A stretch of 64,000 nt of DNA from Rhizophagus irregularis (taxonomy: Eukaryota > Glomeromycota > Glomeromycetes > Glomerales > Glomeraceae), in assembly GCF_026210795.1 (NCBI RefSeq), contig NC_089433.1:4055001-4119000 (forward strand), in the 5' to 3' direction. Under the pieces are notes generated by a model, which was not told the DNA's origin, did not search any database, and saw nothing but the letters and a program-made list of their open reading frames with translations. The position numbers and the translations under genes are program-made. Positions 813-59,836 of this stretch are shown here, piece by piece. Each line of letters begins with the position of its first letter. Position 1 is the first letter of the stretch.

Positions 813-2332
813 ATGTCATCACAATTTCTTTCAAAGTTAAGTCAAAATTATATTGAATTATTAGAAGATAATGAATATTACGATATTACGATTGAAGCTG
901 GAGAGGATCCTAATGTAAAAATCCTTCGTGCTCATATGAATATTTTGTGTTACCGTTCTTCATATTTACGGCGAACTTTGACCTCATATAAAAAAAATAA
1001 GGATAATGTTTTAGCTCATATTAAATTACCAAACATATCGCCTGAAACCTTTCAGATTATTTTAAAGTAAGTTAATATACAATAAAAATTTTATATAATA
1101 CCATATCCTCAAATTTTCAAATATTCAAATTCGAAATTCAAATTTATTGTATAGGTATATTTATGGTGGTATTCTCTCATTGAATGAACAAGACACTTCA
1201 GAGATATACAAAATTTTATTAGCTGCGGATGAGCTGCTTCTTCAAGAGCCAATTGATTATTTGCAAAAATATTTCATTGAAAATAAATCTGAATGGATGG
1301 AACAACATTTTGAACTTATTCATAGAACAAGCTTTCAATCCAATTCTTTATTAGAGATTCAGCAATTTTGTACGGATTTTATGGCAAAATCTCCAGAGAA
1401 AATATTTAAATCACTTGACTTCACTTCGCTTCCTGAAAAATCTTTAGTTCAACTTATTAAAAGAGATGATTTACAAATGAAAGAAATTGATGTTTGGGAA
1501 CATGTGTTAAAATGGGGACTTGCACAAAATCCTACACTTCTTCCAGATCCTAATACTTGGTCAGATGATGATTTCAAAACAATGGAAAATACTCTACAAC
1601 ATTGTTTACCTTTAATCAGGTTTTTTAGTTTATCATCCAAAGAATTCTTAGAAAAAGTTCATCCTTTTAAAAACCTTTTAAACCGTCAGCTTTACAAAAA
1701 TTTATTAAATTCCCATTTGGATCCTGAGAGTGAACCAACCGATGATATTTCATTTCCTAGAATTATTAAAAATGATGGAATTATCGATTCAAAAATTGTT
1801 AATAATTTAAATATCATTTCAACAATTTCAAGAAGAATTGATAAAATGGTAATTAATAATAAATTTGATCATCTAAGAGGATTATATTTACCTTACGAAT
1901 TTCAATTATTATTAAGAGGAAGTCGAGATGGATTCACTCCTAAAAAATTTCATCAATTATGTGATGGTAAGCAATACTGTTACCTTTATTAAAGTAAAAG
2001 GAACAGAAGAAATTCTTGGTGGATACAATCCTGTGAAATGGGAATCTTCTGGATGGGGTAAAACTAAAGATAGTTTTATATTTTCTTATAAAAACAACTT
2101 TATTAAAGATATAATTATTAGTAGTATAGTAGATACAGAGTATGCATTTCAAAACCATACTATCCTTGGTCCATATTTTGGCAGTGATATTATTATTATG
2201 AATGCTAGTACTGAATCTGCAGATTATAATAATATTCGGTGCAGAAAATACTATTATGAAAAAAAGATAAGAGATACCGAAGAACAATTTTCAATAGAAG
2301 ATTATGAGGTGTATCAAATCACGAGGAGATAA
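813..2332 (+). pseudogene. BTB-BACK-TLDc gene, frameshifted in TLDc
   Basis: Exon 1 runs 813-1066 (BTB start; first residues MSSQFLSKLSQNYIELL), the intron is 1067-1154 (GTAAGT...TATAG) and exon 2 starts at 1155 with YIYGG. BTB and BACK domains read cleanly. Near 1973, inside the TLDc domain just after FHQLCDG, the sequence is two bases shorter than its paralogues, so the predicted protein stops at 1992. The lost remainder (FIKVKG, EEILGGYNP, ... EDYEVYQITRR) continues in another frame to 2332. The break removes most of the TLDc domain while leaving BTB and BACK, so a truncated adaptor-like protein is possible. I call it a recent pseudogene; an assembly error is the alternative. Its 3' flank resembles that of the copy at 11985 rather than that of its neighbour at 9644. 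Confidence 0.8.
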
Positions 2333-2770
2333 ATACAGTATATACATATAATATCTATAATTATTTGATTCGTATACATTTGAAACAAAAATAAAACTGA
2401 TCTCACAGAAATTAAAGAAAAAATGCATATATCCATTATATTTCGTCTGTTCAGTTATAAGTTATAGCTATTGCAACTAGTATAAAGATAATTCTTCCTA
2501 ACTTTTACGGTCTTTAACTTCCCGTTCAATTCTTTTATTTGCTTAATTTAGAATTTCATTGATATTAAAAGTTTATAATTTATCACCTCAAATAAAGAAT
2601 AAGAAATTTAAGTAAGTCAAATTTATCGTAATTCTTAAATACCATATACACTTACCATTAATGTTACATACTGTAAAAGACTTAACCTTGTAAAAAGACA
2701 TAAGGTTTAAAATAGAATTATTATTATGATTGTATTGAGGCTTCACGTCTTCAAGATTAATTATGTTCGA
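2333..2770. other. Intergenic flank shared with the 11985 gene
   Basis: No gene. Segments around 2500-2520 (TTCCTAACTTTTACGGTC) and 2690-2765 (TTGTAAAAAGACATAAGG; TCTTCAAGATTAATTATGTTC) match, with changes, the 3' flank of the 11985 gene near 13998-14260. This is evidence of segmental duplication. Confidence 0.5.
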
Positions 2771-3036
2771 TATTGTTTTAGCTCATATTAAATATCACCA
2801 GGAATAAGATATATACAACAAATCCATATGTAATACAGTAACCTCGAATTTTCAAATATTCAAATTCGAAATTCAAATTTTTTGTATAGGTATATCTATG
2901 GTGATATTCTTTCATTAAGTAGACAAAACACTTCAAACTATTACTAGTTGCGGATAAGCTGATTAATTGATTATTTACAAATATTTCATAAATAAAGCCA
3001 AATTGATGAAACAATGTTTTGAACTTATTCATGGAA
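2771..3036 (+). pseudogene. Relic of a BTB-BACK-TLDc gene (5' part)
   Basis: The segment begins with the end of exon 1 (GTTTTAGCTCATATTAAAT) and passes through a recognisable copy of the family intron ending TTTTTTGTATAG at about 2888. It continues into the start of exon 2 (YIYGDILSLS) and on to the EWMEQ-FELIH region. The donor site, the BTB start and everything after early BACK are missing, and the remaining frame is interrupted several times. It lies directly downstream of the 813 copy and marks an older family duplication here. Confidence 0.75.
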
Positions 3037-3039
3037 TTA

Positions 3040-4262
3040 GGAATTAGCTTATTAATTCTTTTTTCCATTTTCCGTCCGTACTTAATTTCAATATCATTTT
3101 CGACTTCGATGCCTTTCATAATTTGATTTATATTATCTTTCAATATGAAGGTATTTTTCTATTCTTCAGGAGGTGTAGAATTTAGAGCTCCTATAGTACA
3201 ACTATTAATTAAATTGTTTAGTTCTGCTTTTATTGCAATTAGAGTATTGGGTAAATTGTTACTTCTCTTTTCCAATGAGAATGTTGCTTTAAATTTTCAG
3301 TATCTGTTTCTGTATTTATACCATTTTAATATAATTTATCGTTTTATATATATTTTCAACTTTTTGGTTTTTCATAAATTTTAATGCTTTGCTTCATGAT
3401 TTTGTGAATTTTCTTTGACATCTTGTAATAAATTATTAATTCCTTCTTCTTTATCTGCTAATTCATGAAATGTTTCTGCAGATACTATTATCTTTCTGAT
3501 TGCTATAGTTGATAATTCATTTAATCTGTTAAATATTCATTAAATAAGCGAATTCAGTTATCTTGATCGGAGATATTTGTAAACAGCACTTTAACTTCAT
3601 GGCATTTTCAATTTATAATAATTTCAATATTTATAATTTCTTCTTCTATTCTAAATTTAAACTCTTAGATAACTCTTAAATCTTAATTTATCCAAATCAT
3701 AATTTGGTAACTGAATAAGTAAATTATGGATATATTTTTTTTGATTTTAAATCTGAATAATTGTTACTTGTTAGCTCCAATAATGATTTTTTCAGCTTCG
3801 GTTATTAGTTCTCTTACAAGAAAGTTTATTTTAAATAATTATATTTTAATACTATTAATATTCTTTTGTAATCATCTGAAATTTGAGATAGTAATGTAGA
3901 TATTTGATAACATTTATGCTTCGATTTTTTGATAACATTATAAAATATTTAGTTTTAATTAATAACATTTTCATAATGATCATCTGACTTTTGTCTATAT
4001 ATAAATGATCTTTTCAATCATAATTCTGAATTGTGAATTCTTTCTGCTAGATTTTTTATCAATTGTTTATTATTAAATAAATCTAAAATGAAGAATTTTT
4101 AATTATGTTTAGTGAACTTTTCTAATTTTGTAAGAAGCGTCTCAATATATTCTCCTTCAATAAATACAATTTTATCCTTTCCATCAAAAGAAATAATTCA
4201 TGGCGTTAGATTAAAAGAATTTTCTTCATGCATTTGTATTTACAATTTTCATTTTATTATGT
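3040..4262 (-). pseudogene. Decayed paralogue sharing a 5' end with the 7599 kinase gene
   Basis: Reading the minus strand from about 4260 gives coding-like pieces in shifting frames. First comes a start region resembling that of the kinase at 7599 (ENSFNLTP then ISFDG, against ENSFDPTP and FISFD). Later pieces include FIEGEYIETLLTKLEKF near 4130-4190, FLVRELITEAEKIIIGANK near 3775-3830, FKFRIEEEIINIEIIIN near 3600-3670 and LNELSTIAIRKIIVSAETF near 3470-3530. The helical, charged composition suggests a coiled-coil or helical-bundle region. No kinase motif survives. The upstream 60 bases also match the kinase promoter (see findings). It is broken many times. Confidence 0.5.
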
Positions 4263-5293: not shown

Positions 5294-7599
5294 TTATTTT
5301 AAATACCTTTCAGTGTCTATGTCAAGCTCTAATTCTTCTGATATATAATTAGAATCTAAAGCAATAGAATTTAAATTTTGTGATGATAAACTAAACGAAC
5401 AAATTAATAGATTCAAATAATTAGTTAGTTATTTAAAAGCAAAAAATCTTTTTTTTGCTATCTTAAATACCTTTTATTGTCTATGTCAAGCTCTAATTCT
5501 GCTGAGATATAATTAAAATCTAAAGGGTATAACATATATCTTATAAATCATATATATAATATTTTTAAACTCTTTTCATAATACTGTATCTTACCAAATA
5601 AATATGAATAGGTAGATGAACATTTAGAAATTAAAGCACTTAATGGCCTACTTATATAAATAGCTTCCGAGTGACATTTTTCAGCAAATTCAGGACCAAT
5701 CATCTTTGTTTCTATCAGTTTCTCTCTTTTTACTTCAGCTTGTTCAAATTCTGATTTGAACTCTAAATCATAATTATAACTTTTAATCATGTCTTTTAAA
5801 GACGGTCTTTTTTTTGGATCGGGATCCCAACAACGTTTCATAAAATTGGCATAACTTTCTGGTGTGTCTTCCGTAATTTTGGGTCGTTCTCCATCAAGAA
5901 TTTTATAAATAAGATTATGATCGTGTTTAGCATTTGCAAAAGGTTTACAACCTGTTGTAAGCTCCCACATAATCATACCCAAACTATAAATATCAGCTTC
6001 TTTTGAAAATGCAGACTTTTTAAATATTTCTGGTGCAATATAAGGTATAACTCCATATATTTCATTATTTGATGATCTATCATTTACAGCTTGTGATAAT
6101 CCTAGATCCCCAATTTTCCATAATGAAAATCTTAAATTTTCTAGTAATATATTTCCGGTATGGAAATCTCGATGTATAAATTCATTACTATGAATACTTT
6201 CAAGTCTAAATTAAAAAAAAAGTAAATAACTTAAATTTTAGAATATAATGAATACATTAAAAATATAAGTACCCTGTTAAAATCTCCTTTAAAATATTTA
6301 ATTTTTGAAACCACGTAATATTTGTAAAATTCTTTTGTAAATGCTTATGTAAATCTCCTCCTGACGCATATTCCATAACTAATATATAATTATTTGATTC
6401 AGAGTCTTTTGTAAAGCCATAAAAATTAATTATATAACCATAAGTTAAGCCATTGAAACAATGACGAATCGATTTTAACTATAAAATTTAAAGATTTTAA
6501 TTAAGGATTAAAGGTTAAATTGCCTAATTAAAATCTTAAAAATATTTACCTCATTTAAGAAATATTTAGAATTTTTAAATCTTTTTAAAATGACAATTTT
6601 ATTCTTAGGTAACCAAGTTGCTTTATATATAATACCATATCCACCTTTTGTCATTTTTTCTACACCTTCAAATTGAGAATATGGTATATACTTAAGACGA
6701 TAATTTGAACTAATCCGTGATAGTGCTAATGGATTAAAATATTTATCAATGGCATTTACACTATTTGCAATATTATCAAAAAGTGAGCTGTCGTATATAA
6801 TATCATTAAGAAAGAGATCATCATTATCTTCATTGCTCTTTACAATAAGTGATATTCTCTTACATTTTTTACATTGAGATTGACCTGTAAGTCCAAAAAT
6901 AATGTTTGTTGTTAAACAGTATCTGCATCCAGTATAAAATATAAGACAATTTGCACAATGCTTTTGACATTCTGACGTAAATATTAATTTTGAGCGACAA
7001 TTTGCACAATACGATTCATCTTCCCACAACGGTGAGTGAAAAATTAAAACTTGCTTTTTAAACAGAGTTGATTCTATCCATTCAAATGAAACCAGATAAC
7101 AATCTGAGCATAATTTAAATGTACTCATAATATCTTTAACTGTTCCTTGATATAGTGACTTTCCACATAATTTACAATTTTTTTCACTTTCAATCACTTT
7201 ATTGTATATCGATTTGTTGTGATTATCAAGATAATAAAGACAATATCTACCTATTTGTTTAAAACATAAAATTCTCACACAATTTTCACAGCATTCTTGA
7301 ATATTTTGTAGTACTTTTGTTTTACCTACTTCATGTTCATTACATTCCAAGTCTAATGTGCCATATATGTCCAGGCATATATTGTTATCTCTTATATCAG
7401 TAATATAGCGTGATAAACATTTTTTGCAATATTTTTGTGAACAAAAAAGCGCTCTAATATATTTTTCTCCACAATAAATACAATTTTTATAAAGCCTATC
7501 AAAAGAAATAAATTTAATCGGTATGTGACTAGATTTTAATCTTGGTGTTGGGTCAAAGGAATTTTCATCATTTATATTTATAACTTTTGCAAGCTGCAT
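5294..7599 (-). CDS. Protein kinase with Cys-rich N-terminus, five exons
   Basis: The model is 7599-6550, 6478-6273, 6205-5595, 5519-5471 and 5390-5294. All junctions have GT/AG borders, and the lengths sum to 2013 nt, an open frame of 670 residues. Residues about 30-270 hold repeated C-X2-C pairs (CIYCG, CKKC, CENC, CKLCG, CSDC, CANC, CRYC, CKKC), typical of zinc ribbons. The kinase domain starts near 305: Gly loop GGYG 319-322, Lys 339 in VILK, HRDFHTGN at 430-437, and DLG instead of DFG at 452-454. These are features common in Glomeromycotina tyrosine-kinase-like proteins. An APE motif and a PxxRPS C-lobe follow. The last two small exons both encode a DxNYIS-ELELDID tail. Likely a cytosolic signalling kinase; substrate unknown. 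The 5' exon is well supported and the last exon less certain. Confidence 0.8.
5303..5525 (-). repeat. Duplicated C-terminal mini-exon of the kinase
   Basis: Two imperfect copies, about 5303-5357 and 5464-5519, each encode an N-Y-I-S-(A/E)-E-L-E-L-D-I-D core followed by an exon end at GGTATTTAA. Both copies remain in frame in the gene model, so the tail motif appears twice in the protein. Confidence 0.7.
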
Positions 7600-8170
7600 T
7601 TTATTATATTAATTATTATACAGTACTATGTTATAAACAAGTATCGATAATGAATTTTAAAAATCTGAACGTATTTTATTTACAATTTTATTTATATCTG
7701 AATGATACAGTTTGTGATACAGAAAGTATTTCTAGATTTCTCATGGATTACGGAATGTTCATTTTAAACCTAGAAGTACTTTATCGAAGAGCAAATGCAT
7801 GATAGTAATACAATTAATTAATGCATCGTCGAATGATACAGTTTGAATAGAAATTTCTGTCAGTGATACAGAAAGTATTTCTAGATTTCTCATGGATCAT
7901 GGAATGTTCGTTTTAAATCTAGAAGTACTTTATCGAAGAGCAAATACATTATAATAGTACAATTAATGCATCGGCTTTATTATATTTACTTACTTAGTTG
8001 AGATGCACCAGCAGAAGTATATTTTAAGTATGGCGTAATTATTAGGTATTTCATCATAGAAGATAATGAAGGAAACAAAAATGTTACACAAATTAAGAAA
8101 GGAAATTAATAAAAAGTTAAGGAAATCAATGAACAATGATAATTTGAGTAATAATGAATATAAGAATTCT
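7600..8170. other. Upstream region of the kinase gene with an internal duplication
   Basis: This is the presumed promoter of the minus-strand kinase (start at 7599). It contains the two direct copies described separately and words shared with 4263-4620. No convincing gene; short open frames here are by-products of the repeat. Confidence 0.5.
7701..7976. repeat. Tandem direct duplication, about 110-130 bp unit
   Basis: The block GATACAGAAAGTATTTCTAG ... CTAGAAGTACTTTATCGAAG ... TTAATGCATCG occurs at about 7715-7822 and again at 7867-7962 with a few substitutions. The copies are separated by a short spacer that itself begins with GATACAGTTTG. Confidence 0.85.
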
Positions 8171-9643: not shown

Positions 9644-11167
9644 ATGTCTACTCAATTTTTTTCAAAATTAAGCAAAAATTATATTGAATTATTAGAAGAC
9701 GATGAATATTATGATATTACAATTGAAGTTGGAGAGGATCCTAATGTAAAAATCCTTCGTGCTCATATGAATATTTTGTGTTACCGTTCTCCATATTTAC
9801 GACGAACTTTGGCTTCTAATAAAAAAAATAAGGATAATGTTTTAGCTCATATTAAATTATCAAAAATATCACCTGAAATCTTTCAGATCATTTTAAAGTA
9901 AGAGTTTATATCAATAAATTTATATATGTAATACCATAACCTCAAATTTTCAAATATTCAAATTCGAAATTCAAATTTTTTGTATAGGTATATGTATGGT
10001 GGTATTCTTTCATTGAATGGACAAGACACTTTGGAAATTCTCAAACTATTATTAGCTGCGGATGAGCTGCTTCTTCAAGAATTAGTTGATTATTTACAAA
10101 AATATTTCATCGAAAATAAAACCGAATGGATGGAACTACATTTTGAACTTATTCATAGAACAAGCTTTCAATCAAATTCTTTATTAGAAATTCAACAATT
10201 TTGTACGGATTTTATGGTAAAATCTCCAGAGAAAATATTTAAATCACTTGACTTCACTTCGCTTCCTGAAAAATCTTTAGTTCAACTTATTAAAAGAGAT
10301 GATTTACAAATGAAAGAAATTGATGTTTGGGAACATGTAATAAAATGGGGTCTCGCACAAAATCATACGCTTCTTCCAGATCCTAATACTTGGTCGGACG
10401 ACGATTTCAAAGCAATGGAAAATACTTTACAACATTGTTTATCTTTAATTAGATTTTTTAGCTTATCATCTAAAGAATTCTTACAAAAAGTTCGCCCTCA
10501 TAAAAAACTCTTAAGACGTCAACTTTATGAGGATTTATTAAATTCTCATTTGGATCCTGATAGTGAACCAACAAACAATGTTACATTTCCTAGAAGTATT
10601 AGGTTTGATGGAATCGTTGAATTAAAAATTGTTAAAAATTTAAATATCATTTCAACCATTTCAAGACGAATTGATAAAATGATAATTAATAATAAATTTG
10701 ATCATTTAAGAGAATCATATTTGCCATACAAATTTCAATTATTGTTAAGAGGTAGTAGAGATGGATTTACCCCTAAAAAGTTTCATGAATTATGTAATGA
10801 TAAGCATGATACAATTACCTTTATTAAAGTAAAAGGAACGGATGAAATTTTTGGAGGATATAATCCGATAATATGGAATACTTCTGATTCGTGGGGAAAA
10901 ACTAAAGACAGTTTTATTTTTTCATTTAAAGATAATAATGTTAAAGATGCAATTATTAGTAATATAAGAAATACATCTTGTGCTGTGCATTATTACTATA
11001 CAAATGGTCCATGTTTTGGCAGTGACATTATTATAGGTGCTAGTAGTGAGTCTGTAAATTATAATACTATTAAGTGTAGGAAATTCTACTATGAAAAAAA
11101 AATAAGAGATACTGAAGATTCGTTTTTAATTGAAGATTATGAAGTACATCAAATCACAAAGGGATGA
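9644..11167 (+). CDS. BTB-BACK-TLDc protein, intact, 477 aa
   Basis: Reference copy for the family. Exon 1 is 9644-9897 and exon 2 is 9988-11167; the intron has GTAAGA/TATAG borders and splits the Lys codon before YMYGG (phase 2). Residues about 14-130 are a BTB/POZ domain (YYDITIEVGEDPNVKILRAH; RSPYLRRTL; YMYGG). Residues about 134-240 are a BACK domain (HFELIHRTSFQ, PEKIFKSLDFTSLPEKSL, DVWEHVIKWGLAQN). Residues about 334-477 are a TLDc domain (LLLRGSRDGFTPKKFHELC, ITFIKVKG, GGYNP, KDSFIFSF, EDYEVHQI). By family, BTB-BACK proteins are often substrate adaptors for CUL3 ubiquitin ligases, and TLDc domains of other proteins bind V-ATPase; neither has been shown for this protein. No signal peptide or membrane segment. 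The start is supported by alignment with all paralogues. Confidence 0.92.
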
Positions 11168-11984: not shown

Positions 11985-13499
11985 ATGCCTACCAATTTTT
12001 TTTCAAAATTGAGCCAAAACTATATCGAATTATTAGAAGATGATGAATATTACGATATTACAATTGAAGTTGGAGAGGATCCCAATGTAAAAATCTTTCG
12101 TGCTCATATGAATATTTTGTATTACCGGTCTTCATATTTACGACGAACTTTGGCTTCTAATAAAAAAAATAAGGATAATGTTTTAACTCACATTAAATTA
12201 TCGAACATATCACCTGAAATCTTTCAGACTATTTTAAAGTAAGTTTATATACATAATGTGAATACTATAATTTCGGTATATTCAGATATTTAAGTTCGAA
12301 ATTTAAATTTTTCGTATAGGTATATTTATGGAGGCGTTCTTTCATTAAGTGGACAAGACGCTTTGGACATTCTTAAACTATTATTAGCTGCGGAAGAGCT
12401 GTTTCTTCAAGAATTAATTGATTATTTACAAAAATATTTAATTGAAAATAAAACCGAATGGGTGGAACAACATTTTGAACTTGTTCATAGAAAAAGCTTT
12501 CAATCAAATTCTTTGTTGGAACTTCAACAATTTTGTACAGATTTTATGGCAAACTCTCCAGAGAAAATATTTAAATCTCTTGATTTCACATCACTTCCTG
12601 AAAAATCTTTAATTCAACTTATTAAAAGAGATGATTTACAAATGAAAGAAATCGACGTTTGGGAACATGTATTAAAATGGGGTCTCGTGCAAAATCCTAC
12701 ATTTCTTCCCGATCCTAATGACTGGACAGATGATGATTTCAAAACAATGGAAAATACTTTACAGCAGTGTTTACCTTTAATTAGATTTTTTAGTTTATCA
12801 TCCAAAGAATTCTTAGAAAAAGTTCATCCTTTTAAAAACCTTTTAAACCGTCAGCTTTACAAAAATTTATTGAGTTCTCATTTGGATCCCAATAGCGAAC
12901 CAACTGATGATATCCCATTTCCTAGAAACATCAAAAATGATGGGATTATCGATTCAAAAATTGTTAATAATTTGAATATTATTTCAACAATTTCAAGACG
13001 AATTGATAAAATGGTAATTAATAATAAATTTGATCATTTAAAAGAATTATATTTACCATATAAATTTCAATTATTGTTAAGAGGTAGTAGAGATGGATTT
13101 ACTCCGAAAAGATTTCATGAATTATGTGATGATAAGCATGATACAATTACCTTTATTAAAGTAAAAGGAACGGATGAAATTCTTGGAGGATATAATCCGA
13201 TAATATGGAATAATTCCAATTCGTGGGGAAGAACTAAAGACAGTTTTATTTTTTCTTTTAAAGATAATGATGTTAAAAATGCAATTATTAGTAATATAAG
13301 GAATACATCTTACGCTGTGCGTTATTACTATCAATTTGGTCCATATTTTGGCTATGACATTATTATAAGTGCTAGTAGAGAGTCTGTAAATTATGGTGAT
13401 ATTTGGTGTAGAAAACGCTATTATGAAAAAAAGATAAGAGACACTGAAGAACAGTTCTCAATGGAAGATTATGAAGTACATCAAATCACAAGGGAATGA
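11985..13499 (+). CDS. BTB-BACK-TLDc protein, intact, 477 aa
   Basis: Exons 11985-12238 and 12320-13499; the intron begins GTAAGT and ends CGTATAG. Exon 2 opens YIYGGVLSLSGQD. The middle of the protein (VHPFKNLLNRQLYKNLL, NIKNDGIIDSKIVNNLNII) is closest to the broken copy at 813, while the TLDc part (TDEILGGYNPIIWNNS, SNIRNTSYAVRYYY) is closest to the 9644 copy. The gene therefore looks like a mosaic of its two neighbours. BACK carries a small change, GLVQNPTFLPDPNDW. The variable TLDc loop reads YDIIISASRESVNYGDIWC. Confidence 0.92.
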
Positions 13500-43029: not shown

Positions 43030-43036
43030 TGCGTCA
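43030..43036 (-). promoter_or_regulatory. TGCGTCA box
   Basis: It lies in GGAAAGAATCTGCGTCAGTC, 83 bases before the ATG at 43113. Spacing is identical to that of the 39325 gene. Confidence 0.4.
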
Positions 43037-43112
43037 GTCAGACATAAATAAATTCAAAATGGTTTAAACACTCTTTTTCCCACATTAAGTTTATTTTTTC
43101 TTTGTCTAAAAT

Positions 43113-45050: not shown

Positions 45051-45054
45051 ACAG

Positions 45055-45278
45055 TTTGCTAATAACTTTTTCTCTATCCTCTTCGTACCAATCTCGGGCA
45101 GCTTCCTTAAGAAATCCAGCGGCTAAAGCAATTTTTCGATTATCTGGCCATCCATTAGCCGCAAAGGCAGCTTCAAAGAGTCGACACCATTCGTATGGAT
45201 CTTCATCATCACGTCCATAGAAAAAGGGAACATCTACAACTTTAGATGTTGTACGATTTTGGTTGGCAGTTGCCAGAA
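45055..45278 (-). mobile_element. LTR-retrotransposon gag-like fossil fragment
   Basis: The minus strand encodes a gag/capsid-type segment (motifs FYGRDDEDPYEWCRLFEAA and WPDNRKIALAAGFL) of the kind found in Ty3-like LTR retrotransposons of fungi. Only a piece of the capsid region is present: no protease, reverse transcriptase, integrase or LTR was seen. It interrupts flanking sequence that is continuous in the neighbouring tandem unit, so it entered after, or during, that duplication. It is a dead fragment. Confidence 0.65.
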
Positions 45279-46195
45279 ATACTATATATATAATATATTT
45301 GTAACTGATATTACGCAAAGAAAAATAATTAATTCGCAATCCATACAAGAATCGCTGAAATACTAAGGGCCAATCACTGTTAATTTTTTATTAATAAATG
45401 GAAAACAAAAGTGCATAATAAATTTGCGAAATGAAACATTAAAAGAAAATTATATTAAAAAGAAGATGGACACTATATTTATCAACTATAATTGCTAATT
45501 TTACTATTACAATTTATTATATAAATGATGCCTTTATTAGAGGAAATATTAGATACAAAATTTTGAAAATTATCATATTATACATATATCCCTTGATTTC
45601 ATTAATAATAAAACTGTCCGATTTTTTATGCGGATTACTAATTAATTTTTTTACTAGAACTAGTATCAATACAACAAATAATAAAAAGGCCTACGATACA
45701 TGTTAAATTTTTCACTAAATTGTAGTAAAAACGATTCCTCGTTAATGATCCTAAATTTCCATAATTTTTAATTTTAATATTACATTTTAAATATAATAAA
45801 TCTTCTAAAGTCCAAGCTAAATACCAAACTTAAGGCCGGAAAGTGTAACTTATCTGAAATTTAATTAATTAAGAGTGTAGTAACGTTCCTAATGGTTCAT
45901 CCATTCGTCAGTTCGAGAAGTGACACTCAATAATGGTTCGGTCGGGAGTTATTTTATCAAATGGATATAATGTACAGAGTCGAGTACTATCAAAAGGAAA
46001 AAACATTTTTATTTTATTATTGTTAACTGCGCAGTATGTCGCACTAATCAACTAAATTCCACAAAGTATGGCGTTTATTTTAATTTGGAAAGAATCTGCG
46101 TCAGTCAACCATAAATAAATTCAAAATGGTTTAAACTTTAAACATAGTTTTATACTCTTTCTCCCACATTAAATTTATTTTTCTTTGCCTAAAAT
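45279..46195. other. Middle and 5' modules of the tandem unit
   Basis: Repeats of sequence seen at 41480-41960 and 42760-43112 (AAGGCCTACGATACATG; AAACTTAAGGCCGGAAAGTG; CATTCGTCAGTTCGAG). No gene. Confidence 0.6.
46097..46103 (-). promoter_or_regulatory. TGCGTCA box
   Basis: It lies in GGAAAGAATCTGCGTCAGTC, 99 bases before the ATG at 46196. The spacing is longer than in the two upstream units because of an inserted TTTAAACATAGTTTTATA-type segment. Confidence 0.4.
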
Positions 46196-47705
46196 ATGTC
46201 AACGCAATTTCTTTCAAATTTAAGTAAAAACTATATTGAGTTATTAGATGACGATGAATATTATGATATCACTATTGAAGTCTGCGAAGATCCTAATGTA
46301 AAAATCTTTCGTGCGCACATGAGCATTTTGTGTTACCGTTCTCCATACTTGCGAAGAATTTTGGCTTCTAATAAAAATCGAAATAAGGAGAATATATTAT
46401 CTCATATTAAATTATCAAAAATATCGCCCGAAGTTTTCCAAATTATCTTAAAGTAAGTTTGCATACAATAAATTAAATACGAAATATTATAGTCTCAAAT
46501 GTTCAAATTTGAACTTCAAATTTTCGTATTATAGGTATATCTATGGTGGTACTCTTTCATTGAATGAACAAGACACTTTAGTAATTCTCAAAATTTTAAT
46601 CGCTGCGGAAGAATTGCTTCTTCAAGAATTAGTTGATTATTTACAAAAATATTTTGTTGAGAATAAATCCGAATGGATGGAACAACATTTTGAACTTATT
46701 CATAGAACAAGTTTTCAATCAAATTCTTTGTTAGAACTTCAACAATTTTGTACGAAGTTTATGGCAAACTCTCCAGAGAAAATATTTAAATCACTTGATT
46801 TCACGTCACTTCCTGAAAAATCTTTGGTACAACTTATTAAAAGAGATGATTTACAAATGGAAGAAGTTGACGTTTGGGAACATGTATTAAAATGGGGACT
46901 TGCACAAAACCCCACACTTCTTCCAGATCCTAATACTTGGTCAGATGATGATTTTAAAAAAATGGAAAATACTTTACAGCATTGTTTATCTTTAATTAGA
47001 TTTTTTAGTTTATCATCCAAAGAATTTTTGGAAAAAGTTCGTCCCTATAAAAGTCTCTTAAAACGTCAATTTTATGAAGATTTATTAAATTCTCATTTGG
47101 ATCCTAATAGTAAACCAAATGACAACATTTTACCTCCTAGAAATATTAGAATTGAAAGCATTATTGATTCAAAAATTGTTAATAACTTAAATATCATTGT
47201 AACTATTTCAAGATGGATTGATAAATTGGATGCTAGAAATAATTTTGCTTATTTAAAAGAACCATATAAGTTTCAACTATTGTTAAGAGGGAGCCGAGAT
47301 GGATTTACACCTAAAATATTTCATGAATTATGTGATGGTAAATATAATACCATTACCTTTATTAAGGTAAAAGGAACGGAAGAAATTCTTGGTGGATATA
47401 ATCCTTTAAAATGGGAATCTTCTGATGGTTATGGTAAGGCTAATGATAGTTTTATTTTTTCTTTTAAAAATAATATTGCTAAAGATGCAATCATTAGTAA
47501 TATAGAAAATCCAGAATATGCACTTTATAATGGCTCTAATATTGGCCCATATTTTGGAAGTGACCTTATTATATATTCAACTCATGATGAATTTAAAGAT
47601 TATAATAAAAGATATTGTAGAAAGCGCTATAATGAAAAAAAGATAAGAGATGCCGAAGGTATATTTTCTCTAGAAGATTATGAAGTATTTCAAATCACCA
47701 AATGA
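46196..47705 (+). CDS. BTB-BACK-TLDc protein, intact, 475 aa
   Basis: Exons 46196-46452 and 46535-47705. BTB: YYDITIEVCEDPNVKIFRAH with Cys replacing the otherwise constant Gly. BACK: LQMEEVDVWEHVLKWGLAQN. The first half of TLDc is like that of the 43113 gene. The second half switches to a type seen in the 21993 and 55658 copies (SSDGYGKANDSFIFSFKNN), with the loop GSDLIIYSTHDEFKDYNKR. This patchwork is consistent with gene conversion. Confidence 0.92.
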
Positions 47706-49247
47706 TAAATATACGATATCTTTTTACATCAGATTAAGTGTATTAATTTTATTCGAAAATTGTAGTATAAATTCAAGTTTAAAGTATATAAATGTTATTT
47801 TTTTGTGCAATTTCTAATATACTATTTATTAACCATTGAGTTATTATATTTTATCCAATAAATTATTTTTAAAATTTTCAATTCATTAATTTATCTCAAT
47901 CCATAATCTAATCGTCCTACATAACATTTGTCAATTAACTTCATATAAAAGTATGTTTTAGCAAAATTAATTTCGTAAAACATAACTATTGTAATTATCT
48001 TAATATTTTTAATTGAATATATATACCATGATCTCTATAATTTACATATAAATTCCTTAATTGCTTAATCTAAAGTTTTCATTGATTCTAAAGGCTGATT
48101 TATTGTCCGAAACGTAGCGTAGGACCGTTTACTTCTAAACATTTCAGATGCAATGTGCATGATTATCGACTAATAGATTTGTATTTAGTTTACGTTTTCA
48201 ATGTACTGTACATGTTACATGATGTAAATAATAAATTGATTATGCTTCGGACCTGCGTTCACTAGTCTAAAATATTTACAATAATTGAATAATTGAGAGA
48301 ATTAGTTATTCATATATGTAGTATATTTATAACTAATATTACCTGTTACGCAAAGAAAATAATTAATTCACAATTCATACAAGAATCGGTGAAATACTAA
48401 GGGCGAATCAGTCAAATCACTGTTAATTTTTTATTAGTAAGTAGAAAACCAGAGCGCATACTAATAAATTCACGAAGTGAAACTTTATCTTCTACTATCT
48501 CTAATTAAAAGAAAAATTATATTAAAAAGGAAGATGAACACTATATTTTTTAACCATAATTGCTAATTTTAATATTAAATTTTATTATATAAATGATGTC
48601 TTTATTAGAAGGAATATTAAATACAAATATCATATGATACATATATTTTTTGATTTTCATTAATAAAACTGTCCGATTTTTTATGCGGATTACTAATTAA
48701 TTTTTTTACTAGAACTAGTATCGATACAACTAATAATAAAAAAGGCCTACGATACATATTAAAATTTACACTAAATAATAAAAACGATTCCTCGTTAATG
48801 ATCCTAAATTACCATAATTTTTAATTTTAATATTACATTTTAAATATAATAAATCTTCTAAAGTCCAAGCTAAATACCAAACTTAAGGCCGGAAAGTGTA
48901 ACTTATCTGAAATTTAATTAATTAAAAGAGTGTAATAACATTCTTAATGGTCCATCCATTCGTCAGTTCGAGGCATAATGGTTCGGTCAGGCACTAGTAT
49001 TATATCAAATGGATACAATATACAGAGCAAATTTCATTAGTATTCGAGTACTATCAAAAGGAAAAATTCTTTTTATTATTGTCAACTGCGCAGTATGTCG
49101 CACTAATCAACTAAATTCCACAAAGTATGGCGTTTATTTTAATTTGGAAAGAATCTGCGTCAGTCAACCATAAATAAATTCAAAATGGTTTAAACATAAT
49201 TTTATACTCTTTCTCCCACATTAAATTTATTTTTTCTTTACCAAAAT
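47706..49247. other. Intergenic part of the tandem unit
   Basis: Same order of modules as in the two preceding units: 3' flank to about 48290, middle module near 48660-48830, 5' module from about 48840. No gene seen. Confidence 0.6.
49156..49162 (-). promoter_or_regulatory. TGCGTCA box
   Basis: It lies in GGAAAGAATCTGCGTCAGTC, 92 bases before the ATG at 49248. Confidence 0.4.
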
Positions 49248-50753
49248 ATGTCAACACAATTTCTTTCAAAATTAAGTCAAAACTATATTGAGTTATTAGA
49301 TGACGATGAATATTATGATATCACTATTGAAGTCGGCGAAGATCCTAATGTAAAAATCCTTCGTGCACATATGAGCATTTTGTGTTACCGTTCTCCATAC
49401 TTGCGAAGAATTTTGGCTTCTAATAAAAATCGAAATAAGGAGAATATATTATCTCATATTAAATTATCAAAAATATCGCCCGAAGTTTTCCAAATTATCT
49501 TGAAGTAAGTTTGCATACAATAAATTAAATGCGAAATATTATAGTCTCAAATGTTCAAATTCGAACTTTAAATTTTCGTATTATAGGTATATTTATGGTG
49601 GTACTCTTTCATTGAATGAACAAGACACTTTAGAAATTCTCAAAATTTTAATCGCTGCGGAAGAATTGCTTCTTCAAGAATTAGTTGATTATTTACAAAA
49701 ATATTTTATTGAGAATAAATCCGAATGGATGGAACAACATTTTGAACTTATTCATAGAACAAGTTTTCAATCAAATTCATTGTTAGAACTTCAACAATTT
49801 TGTACGAATTTTATGGCAAACTCTCCGGAGAAAATATTTAAATCACTTGATTTCACGTCGCTTCCTGAAAAATCCTTAGTACAACTTATTAAAAGAGATG
49901 ATTTACAAATGAAAGAAATCGAAGTTTGGGAACATGTATTAAAATGGGGACTTGCACAAAATCCCACAATTCTTCCAGATCCTAATACTTGGTCAGATGA
50001 TGATTTTAAAAAAATGGAAAATACTTTACAACATTGTTTATCTTTAATTAGATTTTTTAGTTTATCATCCAAAGATTTTTTACAAAGTATTCGTCCTTAT
50101 AAAAAACTCTTAAAACGTCAACTTTATGAAGATTTATTAAATTCTCATTTGGATCCTGATAGTAAACCAAGCGATAATATTTCACTTCCTAGAAATATTA
50201 AAATTGACACAATTATTAATTCGAAAATAGTTAATAATTTAAATATTATTTTAACTATTTCAAGACAAATTGATAAATTGGATATTAAAAATAATTTCGC
50301 TCGTTTAAAAGAACCATATAACTTTCGATTATTATTAAGAGGGAGCCGAGATGGATTTACACCTAAAAAATTTCATGAATTATGTGATGATATACCCCAT
50401 ACTGTTACATTTATTAAAGTAAAAGGAAAAGACGAAATACTTGGTGGATATAATCCGATAATATGGAAATCTTTTGGTGGTTGTGGAAAAACTATGGATA
50501 GTTTTATTTTTTCTTTTAAAAATGATAATGTCGAAGATGGAATAATTAGTTATGTGAAACATACAGATTATGCAATACGTTATAACTTTAGCATTGGTCC
50601 ATTTTTTGGTTATGACATTATTACATGTGCTCGAAATGGATCTGAAGTTTTCAATGATATTCGTTATAGTAAGAATTATTACGAAAAAAAGATGAGATAC
50701 CGAAGGTCAATTTTCTATGGAAGATTTTGAAGTATTTCAAGTTATAAAGAGAT
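49248..50753 (+). pseudogene. BTB-BACK-TLDc gene with a late frameshift
   Basis: Exons 49248-49504 and 49587 onward. The frame is open for 466 codons to 50730, but about two bases are missing near 50693 relative to paralogues (GATGAGATACC where others have GATAAGAGATACC). The protein therefore ends KKMRYRRSIFYGRF. The family ending (EDFEVFQVIKR) sits in another frame and stops at about 50753. Up to that point all domains read normally; the loop is GYDIITCARNGSEVFNDIR. Only the last TLDc strand is altered, so a partly functional protein is conceivable. The 5' two thirds is nearly identical to the 46196 gene, while the TLDc half is divergent. Confidence 0.75.
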
Positions 50754-51991
50754 AGATATATGAAATATTCTTACTAAAGAAACAAAAATATTGTTGTTGA
50801 TAAATTATCATGAGAGATCCCTTTTTAAGTAATTATGGCAATTATAGGCGTATTTAAAGATTCAATATTTTTGACTTTTTATATTTAATCTAGATTGAGT
50901 ACTATAAAATGATGATTTTTAACTTTCACAATTTTTAAAAAATCAAATAAGTATAGAAAGTTAAAAGTTTTCATCTATTTAAGTGTTGAGTTTGTAATTT
51001 GATCAAAAAGAAAAAACAATATTGTTTATAGAATACAAAACATAATCAATTTCTTTTATTGTGAAATTTCAATACTGCACTCTGGTTTGGAAATAAAATC
51101 AGTATATTTTATAAATATATTAAATCAAAATTATTTTTATGCTTCATCTTTTAGCTCATCGTTTTGTTTACATTTAAAATCCGTGATAATAATCTAAAGG
51201 TTAGGTTTGAGTTTGCGTGCAACCAAGCCAAAAAAAATCATGCAAAAATTCTTTTAATACCAGGTGACAGGTGGAAAGCTATTACAATAAATTTTTGGAC
51301 GCTGACTGAAATTATGATTCCAACCTCGAAAAAATGAATGCGTTTTACTAAATGGTTTTGACCACCTCAGAACTTTTATATATATTTTGGGTTGTCAATC
51401 CGTGTTTTATTTATATTTCATGTTTTTCCCGTAAATATTGAAATTTATAATATCCAACATGAAAATTATTCGGCTTGTAGCAGGTACACGTAATATTTAT
51501 AGATAAACAGAGTGTAACGTCTTTCTTATTCAAAAAAGACCATTCACATTTAAATCCTTTGGATACTTTTAATAATTAAAATCTTTTCTCGTGTTCTTTT
51601 TTTCAAAATAGCAAGGCATTAGTACTATATTAATTATTACGTTTAAATTTTTATTGAATTTAGGGTTTAGGGCTTTTAGTTAATGCAAGCTAGCTATACA
51701 CTAATTCTTAATCGCAATTCACAAAAAAAAAATAAAATAAATGAGTTATTTATGAAAGCAATCAGTATAAACCTTAATTAATATAAAAATTATCGTTAAA
51801 AAATTATTTTTAATTTTAGTACGTGAAAAATATTATATTGGAGTATACCAAACATTTCAAGCATTTCAGTAATACAAGCCACGCGCAAGATACTAATTTT
51901 GGCTATCTGGATCAATTATAAATCATGCGGAACTTCCATTTTTATAAAAATTTCAAATTTCTTTCCTTCTCTTTTTTTTTAAAAAAAAAAA
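50754..51991. other. Intergenic; tandem-unit flank absent
   Basis: The 3' module found after the preceding genes does not continue here, so the duplication ends inside or just after the 49248 copy. No gene seen. The T9/A12 tract at 51972-51992 precedes the next start. Confidence 0.5.
51972..51991. promoter_or_regulatory. T/A self-complementary tract abutting ATG
   Basis: Nine T followed directly by an A run that merges with the ATG at 51992. It is the same arrangement as before the 21993 start. Confidence 0.4.
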
Positions 51992-53502
51992 ATGTCTGTT
52001 CAATTTTTTTCAAAATTAAGCCAAAACTATATTGGATTATTAAAAGACGATGAATATTATGACATAACGATTGAAGTGGGTAAAGATCCTAACGTAAAAA
52101 TATTTCGTGCTCATATGAATATTTTGTGTTACCGATCTCCATACTTGCGAAGAATTCTGGCTTCTAACAAAAATCGAAATAAGGAGAATATATTATCTCA
52201 TATTAAATTTTCAAATATATCATCGGAAAATTTTCAAATTATTTTAGAGTAAGTTATATATTTAAAATTTAGTATATTATAAATATTTATTTATTAAATT
52301 TTATAATCATATAGGTATATTTATGGTGGTATTCTTTCGTTGAATGGACAAGAAATTTTAGACATTATGAATATCTTGGTAGCTGCAGATGTGCTCCATC
52401 TTCAAGAACTTGTTGATTATTTACAAACATATTTAGTTGAAAATAATCCTGAGTGGATAGAACAACATTTCGGGTTTACTCAACAAATTGCTTCACGTTC
52501 TAATAATTTACTAGAACTCAAAGAATTTTGTACAAGATTAATGGCTAAATCTCCTGAAAAAATACTCAAATCAATCGATTTTACTTCACTTTCTGAAAAA
52601 TCTTTGATTTCACTTATTAAAAGAGATGATTTACAAATGAGAGAGGTTGAAGTATGGAAATATATATTAAAATGGGTCTCGCACAAAACCCCACACTTCT
52701 TCCTGATCCTAATATTTGGTCGTATGATGATTTTAAAACAATGAAGAATATTTTACAAAATTGTTTACCTTTGGTCAGATTTTTTAGTCTATCATCTAAA
52801 GAATTCTCACGTAAAGTCCGACCATATCAAAAGCTCTTAGACCATCAGCTCTATGAAAATTTGTTGAGTTATTATTTGGATCCTGAAATTGTTTCAACTC
52901 ACAAAATTTTACGTCCCAGAAAAACAGTCCTATTAGATAATGACACTCAGATTATTGAATCTCGAATTATTGATCTTAATATTGCTTCAACTATTTCAAA
53001 GTGGATTGATAAAATTGTTATTAATGATGATAATTTTAGAGAATTTTATTTACCATACAAATTTGAATTATTGTTGAGAGGTAGTAGAGATGGATTTACA
53101 CCTAAAAAATTTCACAAATTATGTGATAATGAATATAATACCATTACCTTTATTAAAGTAAAAGGAACAGAAGAAATTCTTGGTGGGTATAATCCATTAA
53201 AATGGGAATCTTCTAATTCTTGGGGTATAACTAAAGATAGCTTTATTTTTTCTTTTAAAAATAAGAATATTAAAGATGCAATTATTAGTAATGTAAATAA
53301 TATAAATCGTGCATTAAATTATGATCCTAGTCGAGGACCACAATTTGGCGTTGATATTGTATGTGGCACCTCCGATATGTCTACGTCTAAAGATTACAAT
53401 CACACTTACTGTAAAAAGAATTTTTATGAAAAAGCAATAAGAGATACTTCAGGTTATTTTACTATAGAAGATTACGAAGTATTTCAAATAATGAAGAGTT
53501 AG
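51992..53502 (+). pseudogene. Divergent BTB-BACK-TLDc gene, one-base frameshift in BACK
   Basis: Exons 51992-52248 and 52315-53502. The reading frame changes at a G run (52674-52676, GGG where intact paralogues have GGGG), giving a stop at 52744. Beyond it the frame is open to the end (DYEVFQIMKS). Apart from this base, all domains are complete. It is the most diverged near-full copy: BACK reads HFGFTQQIASRSNNLLELKEF, and a linker has HKILRPRKTVLLDNDTQIIES. A single homopolymer change in an otherwise clean gene could be an assembly error; the alternative is very recent loss. Confidence 0.65.
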
Positions 53503-53829: not shown

Positions 53830-54145
53830 GACAATTTATATATTATCGTTCTCCATACTATTTACGATAGGCCTTGGTTTTAATAAAAAGGATAAGTAAC
53901 GTTATAACATGTATCAGGAGTTTTTCAAATTATTTTTAAGTACTGAAGAAATTCTTATCATCGAATATTCAGTAATTATAAAAATGAGAGTCATTTAATT
54001 CTTGAGTATAAATAAAAATGATTTTATTTTCTCTTTCAAAAATTAAAGATGTGATTTTATTATAAAAAAAAAAAAAGATGAGAGATATGATACTATTGAA
54101 TAATTTCGATAAAAATTATGAAGGTATTTAAATAAATATTCTAAA
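53830..54145 (+). pseudogene. Collapsed relic of a BTB-BACK-TLDc gene
   Basis: Ordered scraps of the family compressed into about 300 bases: TATCGTTCTCCATAC-TATTTACGA (BTB, YRSPYLR), CAGGAGTTTTTCAAATTATTTT (end of exon 1), GAAGAAATTCTT (EEIL of TLDc), GATTTTATTTTCTCTTTCAA (FIFSF), then a GATGAGAGATATGATAC...GAAGGTATTT end. Exon 2 between BTB and TLDc is gone. It is an old, internally deleted copy in the same orientation as its neighbours. Confidence 0.65.
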
Positions 54146-54456: not shown

Positions 54457-54458
54457 TA

Positions 54459-55657: not shown

Positions 55658-57171
55658 ATGTCAACACAATTTCTTTCAAAACTAAGCCAAAATTATATTG
55701 AAATATTGGCAGATGATGAATATTATGACGTCACAATTGAAATTGGCGAAGATCCTAATGTGAAAATTCTTCGTGCTCATATGAATATTTTGTGTTACCG
55801 TTCTCCATATTTACGACGAACTTTAGCGTCTAATAAAAAAAATAAAGCCAATATTTTGTCTCATATTAAATTACCAAATATATCACCTGAGGTCTTTCAA
55901 ATTATTTTAAAGTAAGTTTATAGGCAATAAATTAATATGTAATACCATAAATTTTCAAATATTCAAATAAGAAATTTAAATTTTTGTATAGGTATATTTA
56001 TGGTGGTATTCTCTCATTGAATGATCATGACACTTCAGAAAATTTCAAAATTTTATTGGCTGCGGATGAGCTGCTTCTTCAAGAGGTAGTTGATTATTTA
56101 CAGAAATATTTTATTGAGAATAAGTCTGAATGGATGGAACAACATTTTGAACTTGTTCATAGAACAAGCTTTCAATCAAATTCTTTGTTAGAACTTCAAC
56201 AATTTTGTACGAATTTTATGGCAAACTCTCCAGAGAAAATATTTAAGTCACTTGATTTCACATCACTTCCTGAAAAATCTTTAGTACAACTTATTAAAAG
56301 AGATGATTTACAAATGAAAGAAATTGAGGTTTGGGAACATATATTAAAATGGGGCCTTACACAAAACCCCACACTCCTTCCAGATCCTAATACTTGGTCG
56401 GACGATGATTTCAAAACAATGGAAAATACTTTACATAATTGTTTATCTTTAATCAGACTTTTTAGTTTATCATCTAAAGAGTTCTTGCAAAAAGTTCGTC
56501 CTTATAAAAAACTCTTAAAAGGTCAACTTTATGAAGATTTATTAAATTCTCATTTGGATCCTGATAGTGAACCAACCAATAATATTTCATTTCCTAGAAA
56601 TATTAAAAATGATAAAAGTATTGATTCAAAAATTATTAATAATTTAAATATTATTTCAACAATTTCAAGACGAATTGATAAAATGGTAATTAATAGCAAA
56701 TTTGATCATTTAAGAGATTTATATTTACCATATAAATTTCAATTATTGTTAAGAGGAAGTCGAGATGGATTTACTCCTAAAAAGTTTCATCAATTATGTA
56801 ATAATATACTTTATACTGTTACATTTATTAAAGTAAAAGGAACGGAAGAAATTCTTGGTGGATATAATCCTTTGAAATGGGAATCTTCTGGTGGTTATAA
56901 TAAGGCTAAAGATAGTTTTATTTTTTCTTTTAAGAATAATAATACTAAAGATGTAATTATTAGTAATATAGAAAATACAGAATATGCATTTTTTAATGAC
57001 CCTATTATTGGTCCATATTTTGGAGAAGACCTTATTATACATTCATATCAAGAATCTAAAGGTTATAGTCAAATATGTTGTAAAAAGAGTCATTATGAAA
57101 AAAAGATAAGAGATACCGAGGATCAATTTTCTATAGATGATTATGAAGTATTTCAGATCACAAAAAGATAA
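55658..57171 (+). CDS. BTB-BACK-TLDc protein, intact, 477 aa
   Basis: Exons 55658-55911 and 55992-57171. BTB: YYDVTIEIGEDPNVKILRAH, SNKKNKANILSHIKL. Exon 2 opens YIYGGILSLNDHDTSENF. BACK: EVWEHILKWGLTQNPTLLPD, and LIRLFSLSSKEF with Leu replacing the usual Phe. The linker RRIDKMVINSKFDHLRDLYL is of the 813/9644 type, not the WIDKLDARNNF type of the 39-47 kb array. The TLDc loop is GEDLIIHSYQESKGYSQIC. The gene thus combines left-cluster and array-type segments. Confidence 0.92.
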
Positions 57172-58311
57172 AAAAAAATAAATATACAATATTTATTTTA
57201 CTTGAAATGTATAGTTTAATTTAGAAATATTCAAATTTTAGGATTTATACACGTTATTCTCATACAAATTCTTCAATAAAATTTTGAATATTACCTAAGT
57301 TGTTGTTTTATTTATGTTTTTATAAATTTAATTATTTTCGATAAATTAGTATTTAATTATTTTCAAATTTCATTTCATTAATTTTATCCCAGATCCTTAG
57401 TTTAATACGACATAATACGTACAATTTAGCTTCAAATAAATGTATTTTAATTATATTTTAATTTATTGTATTGCTAATCACCTCTCTGTTCCGGTACAAA
57501 TGAAGAATGGGAGAGCGTAACAGCATGACAAATTTTATTCTCCAATGCAACGATTAACATTAACTTTGAGTAACTTTTCTTTCAATCACCTAATCCTTTA
57601 CATTTAGGAAATGCGTGAAATACCAATAATTGTTCAATACAACTAAACTTAATAAGCCATAGTACTAACTATTGTATCAATTTTAATATCTCCTTCTAAT
57701 GAGTAAAAAATAAATTTCACAAACTTTATTAGCCTTACGTATAAATTCTTTAGTTGCTTAAAGTTTTCATCGATTTTAAAAAGCTAGTTTATATGCATCA
57801 AATAAAAACAAAATATCGAGAATGAGCATTAGTAACTTACAAATTTTAGTGAATACTCCATATAAACATATTTATTACTAAAAAATGATCGAATGATCAA
57901 ACCGTTAACTAAGACTAGTATCGATGCTACCGATAATATTAAAAATCTACGATATTAAGCAGTTATTAAATTTTTACTCATTTGACAAAAACCGAAAATA
58001 TGACTCTTCTTTTTTATTATTGATTCTCATGGCTTAATACTGTTAATAAATGTTGTTTATTTGTTTATTTTTTTATATTAGTGAAGATTTTGATTTTTTT
58101 TTATTGTCTATTGCATAGTGTATCATAATAATAAATGATTATCGACAAACTATGACGTAATGAAAACTTAAAATTTTAATTTGGAAACAATCTGCATCAA
58201 TATTTATATTTGAAATAAATTAAATAAATTAAAATAAATTATTTAAACTTTAAACTTTTGTAGTTTTATGCACTTTCTCCCACATTAAACTAATTTTTTT
58301 TTTACTAAAAT
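57172..58311. other. Intergenic; contains the empty site of the 60123 MITE
   Basis: No gene. 57480-57560 (CTCCAATGCAACGATTAACATTAACTTTG) is paralogous to 60100-60345, where the MITE is inserted. 57830-58020 is likewise paralogous to 60590-60790. The right end is the promoter of the 58312 gene. Confidence 0.6.
58153..58159 (+). promoter_or_regulatory. TGACGTA box
   Basis: TGACGTA lies 159 bases before the ATG at 58312 (context CTATGACGTAATG). A degenerate array-type site, GGAAACAATCTGCATCAATA, sits about 27 bases further downstream. Confidence 0.3.
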
Positions 58312-59836
58312 ATGTCAACGCAATTTCTTTCAAAGTTAAGTCAAAACTATATTGAATTATTAGATGATGATGAATATTATGATATTACAATTGAAGTTGG
58401 CGAAGATCCTAATGTAAAAATCTTTCGTGCGCACACGAGCATTTTGTGTTACCGATCTCCATACTTACGAAGAATTTTAGCTTCTAACAAAAATCGAAAT
58501 AAGCCGGAGAATATTTTAGCTCATATTGAATTATCAAATATTTCGCCCGAAGTCTTTCAAATTATTTTAAAGTAAGTTTATATACAATTAACCTTTTATG
58601 AAATATCATAGACTCAAAATTTTTAAATTCGAACTTTAAATTTTTTTGTATAGGTATATTTATGGTGGTATTCTTTCATTAAATGATCAAGACACTTCAG
58701 AGATTTTCAATACTTTATTGGCTGCGAGTGAGCTTCTTTTTCAAGAGATAGTTGATTATTTGCAGAAATATTTTATTGAGAGTAAATCTGAATGGATGGA
58801 ACAACATTTTGAACTTGTTCATAGAACAAGCTTTCAATCAAATTCTTTGTTGGAACTTCAACAATTTTGTACGAATTTTATGGCAAACTCTCCAGAAAAT
58901 ATATTTAAATCACTTGATTTCACATCACTTCCTGAAAAATCTTTAGTACAACTTATTAAAAACGATGATTTACAAATGAAAGAAATCGAAGTTTGGGAGC
59001 ATGTGTTAAAATGGGGTCTTGCCCAAAATCCCACGATTCTTCCAGATCCTAATACTTGGTCAGATGACGATTTCAAAACAATGGAAAATACTTTACAACA
59101 TTGTTTACCCTTGGTTAGATTTTTTAGTTTATCATCAAAAGAGTTCTTACAAAAAGTTCGTCCTTATAAAAAACTCTTAAAAGGTCAACTTTATGAAGAT
59201 TTATTAAATTCTCATTTGAATCCTGATAGTGAACCAATCAATAATATTTCACTTCCTAGAAATATTAAAAATGATGAAATCATTGATTCAAAAATTGTTA
59301 ATAATTTAAGTATTATCTCAACAATTTCAAGACGGATTGATAAAATGGTAATTAATAATAAATTTGATCATTTAAGAGAATTATATTTACCATATAAATT
59401 TCAATTATTGTTAAGAGGAAGTCGAGATGGATTTACTCCTAATAAGTTTCATGAATTATGTAATGATATACTTTATACTGTTACATTTATTAAAGTGAAA
59501 GAAACAGAAGAAATTCTTGGCGGATATAATCCTTTAAAATGGGAATCTTCTGGTGGTTGGTGTAAAACTAAGGATAGTTTTATTTTTTCTTTTAAGATTG
59601 ATAATATTAAAGATTCAATTATTAGTAATATAGAAAATACAGAATATGCATTTTATAATGGTTCTTATGTTGGTCCTTATTTTGGAAAAGACCTTATTAT
59701 ATATTCAAGTTCTAGTGATTTTGAAGATTATAGTCATAGATATTGTAGAAAGAATTATTATGAAAAAATAATAAGAGATACCGAAGATCTATTTTCTATA
59801 GAAGATTATGAAGTATTTCAAATCACAAAAATTTAA
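58312..59836 (+). CDS. BTB-BACK-TLDc protein, intact, 480 aa
   Basis: Exons 58312-58571 and 58654-59836. Exon 1 is one codon longer than in the array genes (NRNKPENILAHIEL). BACK: SPENIFKSLDFTSLPEKSL (Asn for Lys), LIKNDDLQMKE. TLDc: FIKVKETEEILGGYNPLKW (Glu for the usual Gly), loop GKDLIIYSSSSDFEDYSHR, ending DYEVFQITKI. The promoter ends TTTCTCCCACATTAAACTAA as in the array. The gene is a close paralogue of the 55658 copy, and their 3' flanks are homologous for over 600 bases. Confidence 0.92.

Follow-up and report, generated by a model that had tools for sequence, protein, structure and literature searches.

According to passages of Dallaire et al. (2021, PMC8647823), BTB/POZ, kinase and Sel1 families are present at high copy number in the arbuscular mycorrhizal fungus Rhizophagus irregularis, at times in tandem arrays, and MULE-type transposons are linked to other expanded families. 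In C. elegans, the MATH-BTB and F-box adaptors are described in a passage of PMC4334554 as being under positive selection in the substrate-binding but not in the cullin-binding domains. Here we describe a window (the whole stretch analysed, 64,000 nucleotides of R. irregularis contig NC_089433.1, assembly GCF_026210795.1, positions 4,055,001 to 4,119,000 of the forward strand) that holds an array of genes encoding a BTB domain, a BACK domain and a C-terminal TLDc domain. The BTB-BACK end of these proteins is constrained and a stretch of the TLDc domain is diversifying under positive selection; the array has gained copies through tandem duplication and has lost them, in most cases, through one hit each. 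Our reading, to which we give a probability of roughly one half, is that the family evolves by birth and death in tandem and encodes cytosolic proteins resembling CUL3 adaptors, conserved at the scaffold end and diversifying at the TLDc end that would do the recognising.

Searches of the window with tblastn and nhmmer, together with a check of the spliced frames, recovered the 13 near-full copies that an initial annotation had listed, eight of them intact, all on the + strand within 813-59836. The spliced frame is uninterrupted over 463-480 amino acids in the intact copies and broken in the other five. Similarity between copies is far above chance (tblastn E-values down to 0), with pairwise coding identity of 75-94%, a divergence of 6-25%. 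The proposed BTB, BACK and TLDc domains were confirmed by Pfam, all above the curated cut-offs: in the spliced c58312 protein BTB scored 66.2 bits (cut-off 20.5), BACK 36.7 bits (20.9) and TLD 55.3 bits (24.5). BTB was matched in all ten exon-1 pieces scanned, drawn from the 13 copies, while TLD and BACK were each matched in 11 of the 12 exon-2 pieces scanned, some of them shortened by defects (the pieces of c21993 and c51992 start inside the BACK region and that of c813 ends inside TLDc). The Pfam scan, which gave BTB, BACK and TLD, contained no Kelch match and neither MATH nor F-box. No relatives were confirmed among IMG/VR viral contigs or GTDB prokaryote contigs, as expected for a eukaryotic family. 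The copies, each named by the position of its start codon, and the diversifying stretch in one of them are as follows.

813-2329 (exons 813-1066 and 1155-2329), + strand: c813, broken by a 2-nucleotide loss near 1972
9644-11167 (exons 9644-9897 and 9988-11167), + strand: c9644, intact, 477 amino acids, BTB by Pfam
11985-13499 (exons 11985-12238 and 12320-13499), + strand: c11985, intact, 477 amino acids, BTB by Pfam
15291-16829 (exons 15291-15544 and 15644-16829), + strand: c15291, intact, 479 amino acids, BTB by Pfam
21993-23504, + strand: c21993, broken by one in-frame TAA (reference codon 148), also present in c25303
25303-26798, + strand: c25303, degenerate, with seven aligned in-frame stops, frameshifts and the donor GTTTAT
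39325-40798 (exons 39325-39581 and 39664-40798), + strand: c39325, intact, 463 amino acids, with a short deletion in the variable TLDc stretch
43113-44623 (exons 43113-43369 and 43450-44623), + strand: c43113, intact, 476 amino acids
46196-47705 (exons 46196-46452 and 46535-47705), + strand: c46196, intact, 475 amino acids
49248-50752, + strand: c49248, broken by a 2-nucleotide loss near the 3' end
51992-53502, + strand: c51992, broken by a 1-nucleotide loss in a G run, the most divergent copy (75-77% identity)
55658-57171 (exons 55658-55911 and 55992-57171), + strand: c55658, intact, 477 amino acids
58312-59836 (exons 58312-58571 and 58654-59836), + strand: c58312, intact, 480 amino acids, with BTB at residues 15-130, BACK at 151-208 and TLD at 331-477
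59558-59791, + strand: span of diversifying TLDc codons in c58312 by M8 posteriors (codon starts 59558, 59666, 59669, 59687, 59711, 59753 and 59789; weaker 59660 and 59735)

The selection tests concern the eight intact copies unless all 13 are stated, in an alignment of 483 codon columns, and the site models were run with our own GY94 script, with branch lengths scaled from M0. The mean ratio of nonsynonymous to synonymous substitution rates (dN/dS) is 0.18 in BTB, 0.18 in BACK, 0.26 in the linker and 0.54 in TLDc (0.31 overall), and one 30-codon TLDc window reaches 1.57 (dN 0.41, dS 0.26). Over the full length, twice the log-likelihood difference (2dL) is 33.0 for M8 against M8a and 25.5 for M2a against M1a, and all seven sites with an M8 posterior above 0.9 fall in columns 391-468. 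Codons 312-483, on their own tree, give 28.3 and 24.8 in the same comparisons. There was no positive selection in BTB-BACK, either in codons 1-311 of the eight intact copies (both 2dL 0) or in codons 1-308 of all 13 (2dL 1.20). The initial annotation had suggested selection for copy number or for the supply of variants; positive selection in the TLDc part, and none in codons 1-311, supports the second of these directly.

Two identity runs among the intact copies resemble gene conversion, one between c15291 and c58312 (codons 312-339, global p 0.002) and one between c11985 and c55658 (codons 307-322, global p 0.02); among the ten best pairs no other run had a global p below 0.05. The trees of the two halves also disagree on the placing of c11985. 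As these runs and the tree conflict call for caution with codon tests, codons 340-483 were tested alone, and gave a 2dL of 25.4 on their own tree and 22.5 on the tree of the N-terminal part. When the eight copies were dropped one at a time, these codons gave 7.4-29.9; columns more than three codons from any gap gave 24.7 and the TLDc part of all 13 copies gave 19.8; the maximum in 40 null simulations of the 172-codon part was 5.45. A count of codons differing by a single nucleotide, which was meant to limit the artefact of multi-nucleotide mutation and set aside 19 multi-hit codons in columns 406-470, found 37 nonsynonymous to 10 synonymous differences in those columns against 121 to 129 elsewhere (Fisher p 1.1e-4, three independent pairs). 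At least four different residues occur in 15 of the 65 columns of this stretch and in 8 of the 418 others.

By analogy with other BTB-BACK families, the BTB-BACK end would plug into a CUL3 ubiquitin ligase, while the selection pattern suggests that the TLDc end may grip targets or contact a changing partner. Each new copy would then be a chance to grip a new or altered target. Most likely the target is not a single, constant house-keeping protein but something that itself changes, be it a parasite, a virus, an endobacterium, a mobile element or a non-self partner. A bolder proposal, which we consider a long shot, is that an arbuscular mycorrhizal fungus inherits the array as a repertoire for recognition: the TLDc loops of these ubiquitin-ligase adaptors would be evolving in an arms race against a changing partner, which could be a mycovirus, an endobacterium, a mobile element or a non-self nucleus. 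TLDc would then be the basis of an intracellular system of immunity or allorecognition.

Several points weigh against an adaptor family with a diversifying recognition end. The interactions with CUL3 and with a target are inferred, TLDc is best known for binding V-ATPase and not as a substrate receptor, and two AlphaFold models were poor (predicted local distance difference test scores of 38 and 44). Our script scales the M0 branch lengths with no refit, and 2 of the 40 null simulations exceeded 3.84. The dN/dS of 1.57 comes partly from a low dS in that window, 0.26 against 0.38 overall. Multi-nucleotide mutations inflate tests of this kind, and columns 406-470 hold 52 multi-hit codons over seven close pairs. 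Omitting c11985 or c9644 drops the 2dL to 7.4 and 9.5, and the conversion-like runs lie at codons 307-339, although the signal stays after their exclusion.

The TLDc modules might instead all regulate V-ATPase, the copies tuning assembly or localisation of the proton pump and BTB and BACK serving dimerisation or turnover. The Pfam TLD match above its cut-off fits this, as does the V-ATPase binding of mEAK-7, OXR1, NCOA7, TLDC2, TBC1D24 and yeast Oxr1p described in parts of two papers (PMC9263379, PMC11094088). We nevertheless think it unlikely: a single conserved partner predicts conserved binding loops and not diversification, yet the fastest columns, 427-428, lie at or beside the glycine-rich loop of OXR1 and NCOA7 in a tentative alignment. 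When the eight intact copies were tentatively aligned by MAFFT with two solved TLDc fragments, that loop was not seen in them, and the family's TLDc profile matched no PDB TLDc chain by sequence at E-values up to 10.

A second account would have the array drifting neutrally in a repeat-rich genome that duplicates often, with copies that lack distinct roles and a TLDc domain that is merely relaxed. High-copy-number and at times tandem families have been described in arbuscular mycorrhizal fungi (passages of PMC8647823), and 5 of the 13 copies here are broken. The codon data make this doubtful, as dN/dS among the intact copies is 0.31 overall, the eight intact tips together reject a dN/dS of 1 (2dL 177) and a class of sites with omega fixed at 1 (M8a) is insufficient for TLDc.

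Four of the five broken copies carry one coding defect each: a 2-nucleotide loss in c813 and in c49248, a stop in c21993 and a 1-nucleotide loss in a run of four Gs in c51992. c25303 has many. Copies with a single defect exist, as the initial annotation stated, and they number four where it had counted three. On their own branches dN/dS is 0.12 for c813, 0.29 for c21993, 0.37 for c25303, 0.25 for c49248 and 0.15 for c51992, each significantly below 1 in branch models, and the five broken tips pooled show no relaxation (0.199 against 0.210). Taken singly, c25303 has a nominally higher ratio (0.37; 2dL 4.64 against a single ratio) and c813 a nominally lower one (0.12; 2dL 5.34). The losses look recent, because the own branch of every broken copy is under purifying selection; c25303 was probably functional for part of its separate history and the other four for most of theirs.

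Two defects are held in common by broken copies. c21993 and c25303 are sisters (bootstrap 100), and the premature TAA is common to c21993 and its degenerate sister, though both tips are constrained. Apart from the stop, c21993 is open and constrained; it may be translated from a downstream ATG (22551) or may tolerate the stop. One and the same base is lost from the G run in c25303 and c51992 but not in c21993, the closest relative of c25303, while c51992 groups with the pair at only 60% support. Around this loss c25303 and c51992 are identical at 88 of 99 positions, the highest of 16 blocks, a figure uncontrolled for the block's general conservation. Common descent, conversion and parallel mutation are all candidate explanations of the common stop and the common base loss.

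The intron position is identical in all 13 copies (AA/GT...AG/G, phase 2, in a Lys or Glu codon), as first annotated. It had been called frozen; the position is indeed the same throughout, and this is simple inheritance of one intron through duplication. The donor is GTAAG[TAG] in 12 of the copies, and c25303, which had been listed as lacking a donor, has lost the extended consensus (GTTTAT) and retains the GT itself. Four of the near-full copies form a block of tandem units, and the array also contains two relics.

39162-50774, + strand: four tandem units whose successive starts are 3.0-3.8 kb apart, with 84-91% identity in the parts aligned by self-blastn and homology reaching the flanks
2769-3040, + strand: relic with the intron and the start of exon 2 (nhmmer E 5.1e-37)
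19668-20350, - strand: inverted relic with the end of the BACK region, the linker and TLDc (nhmmer E 3.7e-76)

Three relics had been proposed, and these two were recovered; a third was not found by nhmmer in the window, where the next match, 53839-53942, scored only 9.4 bits (E 0.001). Homology in the block 39325-50752 extends from about 20 bases to 1.1 kb past the genes, depending on the pair and the side, at 84-91% identity. Outside the four-unit block it extends in most cases no more than about 280 bp beyond the coding sequence, apart from a few separate flank patches, among them those downstream of c55658 and c58312 (57368-58098 against 59932-60866, 69-74%) and one upstream of c25303, described below. 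Adjacent copies tend to be kin (Mantel rho 0.25, p 0.022, 13 copies). The extents of flank homology and the kinship of neighbours fit tandem duplications of differing age. Together with the low dN/dS of the broken tips (0.12-0.37), the 3.0-3.8-kb units support the earlier description of an array actively gaining and losing members. A stretch about 0.8-0.95 kb upstream of c25303 (24354-24481) shares 76-80% identity with the upstream DNA of c43113, c46196 and c49248 and is possibly the trace of an older shared unit. With its first copy starting at 813, the array may continue past the left edge of the window.

The initial annotation had raised the possibility of assembly duplication. This was considered and ruled out, because coding identity between copies is only 75-94%. 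A wider artefact of assembly or sequencing, comprising duplicated contigs or alleles and false frameshifts, is very improbable. In c51992 the frame is broken by the loss of one base from a G run, and base loss in single-base runs is an error type of long reads. Against such an artefact, the copies are 6-25% apart in coding DNA and the flanks are mostly unlike outside the four-unit block, while two of the other defects are 2-nucleotide losses outside any long single-base run and a third arose by substitution to a stop codon.

The window is AT-rich (GC 0.22-0.33), the introns of the array are short, and several other genes are present. At 5548-7608 (- strand) lies a protein kinase gene in several pieces, with the kinase match at 5548-6478 and an N-terminal part (6508-7596, - strand) that has many Cys pairs and is without a Pfam match. 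At 33128-35593 (+ strand) kinase pieces (33128-34269) precede a frame in which Sel1 is matched seven times (34304-35590), apparently as one kinase-Sel1 gene with introns. An open reading frame at 45034-45387 (- strand), inside the tandem block, had no Pfam match at E 0.05 but resembles a retrotransposon gag fragment. Judged by eye, two overlapping open frames at 62146-63317 (+ strand) look like a single gene with a membrane segment at the N terminus; they likewise had no Pfam match at E 0.05. No tRNA, Rfam match or inverted repeat of at least 150 bases was found in the window.

The array resembles the high-copy families described in passages on R. irregularis in being a tandem set of multi-copy BTB genes, with kinase and Sel1 genes nearby. 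It differs in that the main text of that paper (PMC8647823) has 0 occurrences of 'TLD', and its passages on these families contain no selection analysis. A term search found 0 occurrences of BTB and TLD in two R. irregularis genome papers (PMC6123716, PMC10234402), and searches of an open-access library, which does not cover subscription papers, showed none that we recognised as having already described selection on BTB-TLDc genes in fungi of this kind. As far as these partial sources go, tandem BTB families in these fungi are already known, and selection confined to the TLDc domain of BTB-BACK-TLDc genes is new. Most lists of expanded BTB and signalling families in mycorrhizal fungi treat them as repeats with no explanation; the confinement of positive selection to a single domain suggests that the proteins recognise a changing partner, and it singles out candidate residues.

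In evolutionary pattern the closest likeness, judged from the passage cited above, is to the C. elegans MATH-BTB and F-box adaptors, which share birth-and-death evolution and positive selection on the putative substrate side, not the cullin side. The R. irregularis genes differ in carrying TLDc rather than MATH or other substrate domains, in belonging to a fungus rather than an animal, and in that their cullin binding is predicted. In architecture they follow KLHL/KBTBD-type proteins in having BTB and then BACK, and KBTBD2 was the only molecule among 12 PDB matches (E up to 0.001) whose best match spanned both, but TLDc stands in place of Kelch. With OXR1, NCOA7 and mEAK7 they share a C-terminal TLDc, and the tail F-x-[IVLM]-x-D-x-E-[VI] is common to the array proteins, OXR1 and NCOA7; they differ in having variable loops and BTB-BACK in front and, in the tentative alignment, in showing no glycine-rich loop. 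There is a precedent for TLDc in defence in the interferon-induced isoform of NCOA7, which blocks viral entry according to part of a published account (PMC9263379). The pattern of selection in the array suggests that TLDc may act as a target-recognition module beside its V-ATPase role.

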